DNA from: Bacillota bacterium
GTDB taxonomy: Bacteria; Bacillota; DTU030; DUMP01
Direction: 5' to 3'
Assembly (NCBI GenBank): GCA_012839445.1
Contig: DUNI01000216.1
Span: 1-37,138 of the forward strand
Length of the DNA stretch: 37,138 nucleotides
The notes beneath the pieces are model-generated. The model was not told the origin of the DNA and did not search any database. It saw only the letters and a program-made list of their open reading frames with translations. Shown here piece by piece: positions 21,408 through 32,309 of the stretch (its first letter is position 1; each line of letters begins with the position of its first letter). A program made the position numbers and the translations under genes.

Positions 21408-21438
21408 CCTAAGTATGTAACAGAAAAGAACATAAGGA

Positions 21439-21486
21439 GCTCCCCTTCGGCGTAAGCATGGGAAAGAAGGAGGGGGAGCGTTTTGT
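21439..21486 (+). promoter_or_regulatory. Hairpin plus T-tract containing the SD of the downstream flippase gene
   Basis: GCTCCCCTTC (21439-21448) pairs with GGAGGGGGAGC (21469-21479), followed by GTTTTG. AGGGGG is the apparent SD for TTG 21483. Confidence 0.65.
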
Positions 21487-25804: not shown

Positions 25805-27838
<2,034 letters not shown>

Positions 27839-28166: not shown

Positions 28167-29645
28167 TTGGAATTATGGGACTTAACCGTGCACGAATTGA
28201 GCCGTCTGCTAGCTACTGGCGAAGTGAGTGCTGTTGAGGTTACACAGGCGGCTTTGGAGAGAGCACAACAGGTGGAGCCAGCAGTACGTGCTTTTGTTAC
28301 CAGTACGGCTGACCAAGCTGTCGTGGAAGCAAATACAGTGGACGCTGCCCGGGCCCGGGGAGAACAGGTAGGCCCTTTGGCCGGTATACCCATGGCTCTG
28401 AAAGATAACATATGTACGCGCGGTGTCCGGACCACTTGCTGTTCGCGCTTATTGGAGAAGTTTGCACCGTCGTATGATGCTACTGTGGTAAGACGGTTAC
28501 AAGAAGCCGGTGCTATCTTGATGGGCAAAACTAATATGGATGAGTTTGCAATGGGGTCATCCACTGAGAACTCGGCTTTCTTTCCCACTCATAACCCTTG
28601 GGATCTAGAGCGTGTTCCGGGAGGTTCCAGCGGTGGTTCGGCAGCAGCAGTGGCGGCGGGAGAAGCAGTGTTTAGCCTAGGTTCCGATACCGGTGGCTCT
28701 ATCCGTCAGCCGGCGGCGTTTTGTTCCGTAGTTGGGTTGAAGCCAAGCTATGGACGGGTGTCGCGCTTTGGAGTGACAGCTTTTGCTTCGTCTTTAGATC
28801 AAGTGGGTCCGTTCACCAAGGATGTCACTGACTGTGCTCTGGTTTTAAATGCTATTGCCGGAAAAGACGAACTTGATCCCACGTCAGTTGTGGATACACC
28901 GCCGGATTACAGACAGTTTCTGGGGAAGGATATCAAGGGATTGAGAATCGGTCTGCCGAGGGAATATTTTGCTGAAGGCATCGATGACGAGGTTAAAGAA
29001 GTGATCATGAAAGCCGTAGGTGTGCTGGAAGGTTTAGGAGCAGTGGTGGAAGAGACTTCACTGCCACATACTGAGTATGCACCTTCGGTTTACTATATCT
29101 TAGCTCCAGCAGAGGCGTCTTCTAATATGGGACGTCTTGACGGTGTTCGCTATGGGCGTAGGGTTGAGGCACCGGATGTAGATACTTTGTACAACAGAAC
29201 ACGGAGCCAGGGTTTTGGGGCTGAAGTACGCCGTCGGTTAATGATCGGGACTTATGCTTTAAGCGCCGGTAATTACGAAGTGTTTTATCAGAAAGCACAA
29301 CAGGTGCGTACGCTTATTGTCCGTGATTTTGAGCAGGCCTTCACTCAGTATGACGTGCTGCTTACTCCCACATCACCTACTACCCCGTTCAAAATAGGAG
29401 AAAAAATAGATGATCCGCTCCAGATGTATCTATCGGATATATGTACCATTCCGGTGAACTTAGCGGGGATTCCAGGATTATCGCTGCCATGTGGTTTTAG
29501 CCAGGGACTCCCGGTGGGGATGCAGCTGCTGGCCAAGCCTTTTGCCGAAAGTACATTGCTTCAGGTTGCTTATGCTTTCGAGCAAAATACTGATTACCAT
29601 AAACAACGCCCACAGGTTACCGTAGGGGGTGAGAGTAATGCGTAA
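28167..29645 (+). CDS. gatA: Asp-tRNA(Asn)/Glu-tRNA(Gln) amidotransferase subunit A
   Basis: Amidase signature [38 protein letters not shown] start. Confidence 0.96.
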
Positions 29646-31083
29646 GGAAGATTTAGAAACGGTTATCGGTCTAGAAGTACACGTGGAGCTGTCCACTGAG
29701 AGCAAAGCTTTTTGTCGTTGTAGCACTGCTTTTGGGGCAGAGCCCAACACTCAGGTTTGCCCTGTTTGTTTGGGATTACCGGGAGCATTGCCGGTACTCA
29801 ATAAGAGGGTATTGGAATATGCCATTAAGACCGGCCTTGCACTTAATTGCTCTATTGCCAGCCAGAGTAAGTTTGATCGAAAAAACTATTTTTATCCTGA
29901 TTTACCTAAGGCTTATCAGATTTCGCAGTTTGACCAACCTATCGCCTATGACGGCTATGTGGACATTACTGTAGATGGACAAGCAAGGCGTATCGGCGTT
30001 AAAAGGGTTCATATGGAAGAAGATGCGGGCAAATTGATCCACACCGGTGATGATATTGCTACTGCTACCAGCAGTTTAGTGGACTTAAACCGGGCTGGGG
30101 TACCTCTTATTGAGATAGTTACTGAACCGGATATCCGTTCACCGGAAGAAGCACGTCTTTACCTTACTAAGTTAAAGACAATTATCCAGTATCTTGGGGT
30201 TTCGGATTGCAAGATGGAAGAAGGTTCCCTCAGGTGTGACGCTAACTTGTCGGTAAGACCACGAGGAAGCAGCAAGCTTGGTACTAAATCAGAGATTAAG
30301 AATATGAACTCTTTCCGCGCTGTTTTTCGGGGCCTCTCTTTCGAAGAAGAACGGCAAAAAGAGGCGTTTTTGGCTGGTGAGGAGATAGTACAAGAAACGC
30401 GGCACTGGGACGAAAGTCGTGGAATAACCGTGGGCATGCGGAGCAAAGAAGAAGCCCAAGATTACCGCTATTTTCCTGACCCGGATCTTCCGCCGCTAGC
30501 CATTGATCCTACTTGGGTGGAAGATATCCGCGCCGACTTACCGGAGTTACCCGATGTCCGGGTTGCCCGATTTATCAAAGAATATGGTCTGCCGGATTAT
30601 GATGCGGAGGTTTTAACTACTTCGCAGCGGGTGGCTGATTTTTACGACGACTGCGTTCGCCTGCATGCAGATCCTAAGGCAGTTAGCAACTGGATCATGA
30701 GCGAAGTTTTGCGCTTGCTGAATGCAGAAGGAAAGGAACTGGAGGAGACACCTCTTACTCCTGAGCATGTGACCAAGGTATTAAAACTGATGGATGAAGG
30801 CGTTATTAGTGGTCGTATTGCTAAAGACGTTTTTGAGGAGACGTTCCACACGGGTCGGGATCCGGAAGAAATAGTCAAAGAGCGTGGCCTAGTACAAATC
30901 TCCGATGAGGACGAGCTTGGTCGTATCGTGGCGGAAGTGTTAGAAGCCAATCCCAATGTGGTGGAAGATTACCGTAACGGTAAGGATAAGGCTCTGGGTT
31001 ATTTAATTGGTCAAGTGATGAAAGCCACTCGAGGCAAAGCTAATCCTCAGATGGTGAACAGGCTTTTTAAGGAAAAACTGTAG
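29638..31083 (+). CDS. gatB: Asp-tRNA(Asn)/Glu-tRNA(Gln) amidotransferase subunit B
   Basis: [41 protein letters not shown]; start overlaps gatA by 8 nt (ATGCGTAA). Confidence 0.96.
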
Positions 31084-31099
31084 GCACATTGCGAATAGC

Positions 31100-31141
31100 T
31101 CTCCTCCGGTCTGGGAAAGCCTAAGGCCGGAGGAGATTTTT
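31100..31141 (+). promoter_or_regulatory. Terminator-like hairpin whose 3' arm is the SD of the next ORF
   Basis: TCTCCTCCGG (31100-31109) pairs with CCGGAGGAGA (31127-31136), then TTTTT directly abutting ATG 31142. Confidence 0.8.
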
Positions 31142-31603
31142 ATGCCGAAGAATCAACCAAAATTGCTACCAGAACTAAGCGGTAGCCAACGTCTTCACTT
31201 GAAGCAAATGCTTAGCGAAATCGTGGATCAGTTGGTTGACCAACAGACTCAGATTGAGCAAACGATCAGTCAAGGATTGCCTGATTTAGCAGTGGGCCTA
31301 AGCAGTGCTGGCAAGATGCGTGAATTAGAGACCATGCTAAGGGAATTATCGTCGTCTCAGGGCAATTATCGAAAAGAATTAGCTAAAGAAGCATTGACTT
31401 CGGCGGCGGCCATGTCTTGGCGGGAGGAACGGTCTTGGGCCCAGGCTCGTGAGCAAGCGTTAGAAAAGGGAGTGGCTAATCTTTTGCAAGCGGCTTGGCT
31501 GGGAACGGCTCTTAAGAGACAAGCAGTGCTTACTGAAGGGCTCACAGTAGTCAAGGGATTGCTGGATCATAAGGAGGACGGCGTAAGTGAAGAAGATCAC
31601 TAA
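31142..31603 (+). CDS. Hypothetical protein, predicted largely helical
   Basis: Intact 153-aa ORF, good RBS, overlaps the next gene by 17 nt; no family recognised. Confidence 0.75.
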   Translation: MPKNQPKLLPELSGSQRLHLKQMLSEIVDQLVDQQTQIEQTISQGLPDLAVGLSSAGKMRELETMLRELSSSQGNYRKELAKEALTSAAAMSWREERSWAQAREQALEKGVANLLQAAWLGTALKRQAVLTEGLTVVKGLLDHKEDGVSEEDH

Positions 31604-32309
31604 GTTTTTGCACCTACATGTATCGGATCTGTGGTTGGTTCTCAGAGCCACGGTGCTTTACGCCATGTCTTTGCTTGCTATTCGGTTGGTGGGAAAGCGG
31701 ACTATTGGACAGTTGTCCCCCTTTGATCTATTGGTGATTGTAATATTGGGTGCAGCGGTGGCAATTCCTATGGAAGATGAAAAGCTGCCTTTTACCCATG
31801 GCCTGATACCTATAGTCATGGTTACTTTGATCAGCTGGTTAATCTCTAAGGTCATTTTGCGTAGCCGACGCATTGAGAATGTTTTACAGGGGAAGCCGTG
31901 TGTGTTAATCGAAAACGGCGAAGTGGTGGTTAAGAACATTAAACAGGAGCGGATTTCCATGACTGATTTAGCCATAATGCTACGGGAGAAGGACGTCAAT
32001 AATATCCAGGATGTTCAAGAAGCGGTGCTGGAGCCGAATGGCTTGCTAAGTGTAATTCTAAAGCCGGAATGCCAGCCTTTGCGGCCTAAGGATATTGGTA
32101 TCAGTACAACAGAAGGGATTTATCCAACGGTGCTGGTGATGAACGGGGAGGTTATTTATGACAACCTGGATCGAGTTCGGCTAGGATTGCCCCAGCTCAT
32201 GAGGGAGTTAGCCGAACGGGGCATTAGGCGGGTACAAGAAGTGAGATCAGCTACCTTAGACGAGACCGGGCAGGTGACAGTGCAGTTAGAAGAAGGGGGC
32301 GAACGCTAA
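31587..32309 (+). CDS. DUF421 (YetF-like) membrane protein
   Basis: N-terminal TM region LAIRLVGKRTIGQLSPFDLLVIVILGAAVAIPM; C-terminal YetF-like domain with repeated 'xxGxYPTVLVMNGEVIYDNL'; GTG start. Confidence 0.88.
   Translation: MKKITKFLHLHVSDLWLVLRATVLYAMSLLAIRLVGKRTIGQLSPFDLLVIVILGAAVAIPMEDEKLPFTHGLIPIVMVTLISWLISKVILRSRRIENVLQGKPCVLIENGEVVVKNIKQERISMTDLAIMLREKDVNNIQDVQEAVLEPNGLLSVILKPECQPLRPKDIGISTTEGIYPTVLVMNGEVIYDNLDRVRLGLPQLMRELAERGIRRVQEVRSATLDETGQVTVQLEEGGER

Follow-up and report, generated by a model that had tools for sequence, protein, structure and literature searches.

A predicted promoter of sporulation type is nested in a hairpin that sequesters the Shine-Dalgarno (SD) sequence of ORF153 in the window, the whole 37,138-nucleotide stretch of DNA from an uncultured member of the Bacillota analysed here, and this arrangement probably blocks expression of ORF153 and the following yetF-like gene from RNA that reads through from the genes upstream. 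As far as searches of open papers show, this is a known read-through-blocking mechanism at a gene not earlier linked to it, to which a probable terminator role and a counterpart with a mother-cell-type promoter are added.

Gene setting of ORF153

ORF153 lies behind gatB at the end of the housekeeping group ligA-gatC-gatA-gatB, in which ligA (at 25823) and gatB were identified by Pfam, and gatC and gatA are named by position and size. Its product of 153 amino acids has no Pfam match and no convincing NCBIfam match, is predicted with low confidence (mean pLDDT 68.6) to fold into two long helices, and has no relative among viral contigs. The gene that overlaps its end encodes a YetF-like DUF421 protein. 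Two inner-membrane proteins of B. subtilis, YetF and YdfS, are made in the forespore and required for spore wet-heat resistance, and yetF, which is part of a gene cluster, is transcribed from a sigma-F promoter that belongs to it alone (PMC10126465). The B. subtilis gene is likewise located downstream of another gene with a sigma-F promoter of its own, while its description mentions neither an SD-sequestering hairpin nor an ORF153 partner. In a distant family of the phylum (L299, L300), an ORF153-like gene is followed by yetF without the hairpin described below, indicating that the gene pair predates the hairpin element; no gatB match was found in the distant-family locus examined. ORF153 was not found in the assemblies G002 and G007, an absence that is uninformative since gatB was not found in them either.

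The hairpin upstream of ORF153

The sequence-only reading had claimed an SD-sequestering hairpin at 31100-31150, and this hairpin is present as described. Perfect complementarity exists between TCTCCTCCGG (31100-31109) and CCGGAGGAGA (31127-31136), and RNAfold extends the pairing to a stem of 16 bp with one bulged A and a 4-nt loop (Table 1). Of 200 dinucleotide shuffles of the 82-nt hairpin region, not one matched the stability of the native sequence (-29.7 kcal/mol; z = -3.9). The SD, GGAGGAG, is entirely inside the stem, which is followed by five T residues and then directly by the ATG of ORF153 at 31142. A simple terminator scan did not list this hairpin, probably owing to the bulge, and no Rfam match was found in the window at gathering score.

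Table 1. Coordinates of genes, promoter elements and hairpin parts in the window
Feature	Position	Strand	Basis or remark
gatB	29629..31083	+	Pfam GatB_N 9e-126, GatB_Yqey 5e-58; last gene of ligA-gatC-gatA-gatB
Predicted -35 element GAATA (GCATA in most relatives)	31093..31097	+	Sole pattern match; conserved in families f1 and f2
5' arm of hairpin	31100..31115	+	RNAfold; 31100-31109 is the anti-SD arm, within promoter spacer 31098-31113
Predicted -10 element GGAAAGCCTA, apical part of hairpin	31114..31123	+	Pattern match, conservation
3' arm of hairpin	31120..31136	+	RNAfold; bulged A31123
Predicted transcription start	31129..31131	+	Placed 6-8 nt downstream of the -10; matching change in computed SD accessibility
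SD GGAGGAG of ORF153	31129..31135	+	Sequence, RNAfold, computed accessibility
T-tract, probably the terminator tail of read-through RNA from gatCAB	31137..31141	+	Sequence; degraded in genus g2
ORF153, conserved helical protein, yetF partner	31142..31603	+	Conserved in six family genomes and beyond
yetF-like DUF421 gene, overlaps end of ORF153	31587..32309	+	Pfam DUF421 3e-36
Sigma-E-like promoter of spoVB-like gene, ACATAA-N14-GCGTAAGCAT	21430..21435, 21450..21459	+	Conserved in seven f1 genomes
Second hairpin	21439..21479	+	Arms 21439-21448 and 21470-21479; SD in 3' arm; start codon TTG at 21483

A predicted forespore promoter within the hairpin

The hairpin overlaps a match to promoters of the sigma-F/G type, with a 16-bp spacer between the -35 and -10 elements, a feature that the sequence-only reading had overlooked. 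The pattern G[ACT]ATA-N15-16-GGNRANNNTA has this single match in the window, against 0.18 expected. GCATA or GAATA followed by 15-16 nt and GGNRANNNTA is the form that sigma-F and sigma-G promoters have in B. subtilis. Two deviations weigh against this assignment: the -10 upstream of ORF153 differs from the strict consensus by a C in place of A, and the -35 of the window is GAATA, not the GCATA of most relatives. Genes of the sigF/sigG type are present in all 13 genomes of the class, with two strong ones in most of them, and the promoter pattern gives 90 matches versus 37 for the reversed pattern. As some of these matches stand at the starts of spoVAC, gpr and alpha/beta SASP genes, the pattern marks forespore promoters in this clade, and the motif pattern suggests that the promoter upstream of ORF153 would be recognised by sigma-F and/or sigma-G. 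A forespore-promoter-like motif also stands before an apparent ribonucleotide reductase gene in L135 (G000:C138:4249-4277, minus strand), where chance is possible.

The anti-SD arm is formed by the promoter spacer, and transcription is predicted to begin inside the 3' arm, at about 31129-31131. For this reason, read-through RNA would have the whole hairpin, whereas RNA from the sporulation promoter would lack the 5' arm.

Computed effect of the transcript start on the SD

The computed accessibility of the SD depends strongly on where the RNA begins. In RNA from gatCAB the SD is paired with a probability above 0.99 (mean P(unpaired) 0.000-0.003), and opening it costs 16.9 kcal/mol; in RNA begun at 31129-31131 the cost is 3.1-3.9 kcal/mol. 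Even when freed, the SD still pairs weakly with the coding sequence, at a P(unpaired) of 0.24-0.50.

These values are consistent with the following sequence of events. Read-through RNA of ligA-gatCAB would contain the complete hairpin, at which most transcripts would probably be terminated, and in the RNA passing beyond it the ORF153 SD would remain buried, so that growing cells would make neither ORF153 nor the product of the coupled yetF. Polymerase carrying sigma-F (and/or sigma-G) would, in the forespore, use the -35 and -10 elements within the hairpin and initiate in the 3' arm, giving RNA with no anti-SD arm and a free SD.

The sequence-only reading had instead named ribosomes finishing the upstream gene, temperature or an RNA-binding protein as possible triggers. 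A conditional RNA switch of this kind, in which one of these or a small RNA opens the hairpin on the gatCAB transcript, would suit the complete burial of the SD and the conserved loop. The conservation of the loop is, however, accounted for by the -10 element, an opening cost of 16.9 kcal/mol is ill suited to a thermometer, and Rfam offers no match; moreover, the gatB stop lies 16 nt before the stem, and a ribosome that terminates there would reach no further than the base of the stem. We therefore consider such a switch very unlikely, and the proposed triggers have found no support. Given the forespore-type promoter within the hairpin, the switch would be which promoter made the RNA: silent and translated RNAs would be told apart by the promoter used, and a signal from temperature, ribosome or protein would be unnecessary.

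Conservation in the window's family and its sister family

The gatB-hairpin-ORF153 order is found in all six genomes of the window's family (f1) that hold the locus. The element, GCATAGCTCTCCTCCGG-(loop)-CCGGAGGAGATTTTTTATG, is nearly invariant among them, promoter spacer included, although the neighbouring gatB retains just 27-33% identity at its four-fold degenerate sites. This invariant block is unexplained by the hairpin alone, and the promoter lies within it. CTCCTCC...GGAGGAG occurs in one copy in the window's own genome and in one copy in each of its two congeners, always at the ORF153 locus. A covariance model (R2) searched across the class found the element in f1 alone; a single further match, in G009, is apparently a terminator unrelated to it. 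Covariation within the stem is weak, as the stem hardly varies.

The promoter is conserved at the six f1 loci and at five loci of the sister family (f2). In f1, pairing between spacer and SD exceeds that of shuffled spacers at 6/6 loci, with p from 0 to 0.006 (3000 shuffles), values that are not to be multiplied since these orthologous loci are not independent. In f2, it exceeds shuffles at 0/5 loci (p 0.15-0.45), while the promoter is kept at all five examined, three of them with GCATA-N15-GGAAAAAGTA, and is located upstream of ORF153 homologs or, in G010, behind gatB at the contig end. Selection on the pairing itself is supported chiefly by this contrast between two families that both keep the promoter.

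A simpler explanation would be that the hairpin is a plain intrinsic terminator of gatCAB, which overlaps the SD only because the intergenic space is short and the arm rich in purines. The stem is strong and GC-rich, with a tract of 5-7 T behind it at four of the six f1 loci (those of the window and three relatives); no other terminator was seen between gatB and ORF153 in f1, whereas at three f2 loci gatB is followed by a terminator-like hairpin of its own. In genus g2, however, the T-tract is degraded (ATTCTTATG, ATTTACTTATG) yet the anti-SD arm and the SD pairing are intact, so that of the two functions it is pairing with the SD that is better conserved. A plain terminator also leaves unexplained the conserved promoter embedded in it and the same layout at sigG and spoVB, the latter lacking a good T-tract. 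Termination as the whole explanation is thus unlikely; as an additional property of a hairpin that insulates ORF153 from read-through, termination of gatCAB transcription is probable. The idea of a terminator doubling as an RBS-sequestering switch is accordingly retained in its SD burial, with the terminator role probable and secondary to SD pairing.

The same layout at spoVB and sigG

The recurrence of the arrangement at 21439-21486, also noticed in the sequence-only reading, was borne out: the gene concerned is spoVB-like (TIGR02900, 3e-85, under the model cut-off), and a third case was added at sigG. At spoVB, ACATAA-N14-GCGTAAG is common to seven f1 genomes and the 5' arm is again located in the spacer. 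No good T-tract was seen at this hairpin. The stem sequence differs between species, and a species' own arms on average pair better (mean -20.1 kcal/mol) than swapped arms (-17.3 kcal/mol), with 6 of 5040 permutations as good. Compared singly with shuffled spacers, three of the seven are clearly better (p 0.0005, 0.0025, 0.0145), a fourth is borderline (0.05) and the other three do not stand out (0.17-0.26).

At sigG, which follows sigE, a long hairpin overlapping GCATA-AAACCTCTCCTCGGT-GGCAATACTG hides both the SD and the start codon (L194:4560-4650, G000:C29; also L060, L061, L063, L066, L067 and L068). All six f1 genomes that cover the region have this hairpin, in one of them cut at the contig start. 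It is absent from four f2 genomes, where the same promoter is followed by a longer leader.

These loci bear on a further possibility, namely that a dimeric regulator binds the inverted repeat in the DNA as an operator overlapping the promoter. The repeat at ORF153 is perfect, lies over the promoter and has arms conserved family-wide, all as an operator might be. Against this, it is limited to one locus per genome in the window's own genus, the spacing between its arms differs by one base between genera, and the arms at spoVB and sigG differ in sequence, each being complementary to its own SD. An operator is accordingly highly improbable, and pairing with the SD is the preferred function of the arms.

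More tentatively, and with slightly less than an even chance of being correct, promoter spacers may have been recruited in f1 as anti-SD arms in at least three sporulation genes situated behind other transcription units, as a general rule of insulation of developmental genes from read-through. The cases are ORF153-yetF, sigG and spoVB, and include promoters of both forespore and mother-cell type. A fourth candidate, an alpha/beta SASP gene (L212:3977), was rejected since its arrangement is unconserved in most relatives. Its SD hairpin (L212:3920-3985, G000:C189) lies over a possible sigma-G promoter, and its upstream neighbour is apparently divergent.

Comparison with known read-through-blocked leaders

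A large hairpin at B. subtilis sigG (spoIIIG) has been proposed to prevent translation of RNA that reads through from PspoIIG, whereas RNA started at PsigG cannot fold into it (Mearls et al. 2018, PMC5942855, and works cited there). ORF153 resembles this case in that a sporulation gene is located behind another transcription unit, that the SD hairpin belongs to read-through RNA only, and that the gene's own forespore promoter is predicted here to initiate inside the hairpin. It differs in that ORF153-yetF lies behind gatCAB and that its hairpin has a T-tract and probably terminates transcription too. The layout of f1 is also found at spoVB with a promoter of mother-cell type. In phage T4, late genes and homing endonuclease genes (I-TevI, segB, soc, e) have SD hairpins in early and middle read-through RNA only (PMC2988022). 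The likeness to T4 is that RNA from the stage promoter is without the sequence required for the inhibitory hairpin; unlike in T4, sporulation sigma factors would take the place of phage late promoters, and the sequences are not homologous.

Of the features of such a leader, those found at ORF153 are, by sequence and computed folding, an SD-pairing hairpin and a predicted stage promoter whose RNA would lack its 5' arm, and, as a sign that the pairing is under selection, the f1 versus f2 contrast (6/6 against 0/5) together with the spoVB permutations (6/5040). In this manner a compact genome could set a stage-specific gene right behind a constitutive operon and still avoid leaky expression, with some 45 bp acting at once as promoter, SD, lock against read-through and probable terminator. 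What has been proposed for a single gene of B. subtilis would thereby be extended to several sporulation genes and to both promoter types, and a promoter spacer complementary to the downstream SD offers a sequence rule by which other spore formers can be screened.

Genome-wide rank of SD sequestration

The pairing energy of the SD region with the 50 nt upstream was computed for 548 SD-bearing genes, obtained by simple gene calling from 755 kb of the 2.04-Mb assembly (37%, 101 contigs). ORF153 ranks first among the 548 genes, with a duplex energy of -26.6 kcal/mol; sigG ranks third and spoVB fifth. The remaining two of the top five are, as judged from sequence, an apparent start inside a cysK-like gene and an apparent smc behind a terminator. 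Three genes reach -22 kcal/mol or lower, against 0.05 expected from dinucleotide shuffles, and five reach -20 kcal/mol or lower, against 0.95 expected; at -14 kcal/mol and weaker there is little excess. The suspected recurrence of such hairpins therefore holds against shuffled controls in the most stable bins of the 755 kb and fails as a general one, and the arrangement appears to be real but rare and no general habit of this genome. A strong SD-sequestering hairpin (-19.6 kcal/mol) also precedes an IS transposase gene (DDE_Tnp_1; L017:1700-1775, G000:C10), where it possibly protects against read-through.
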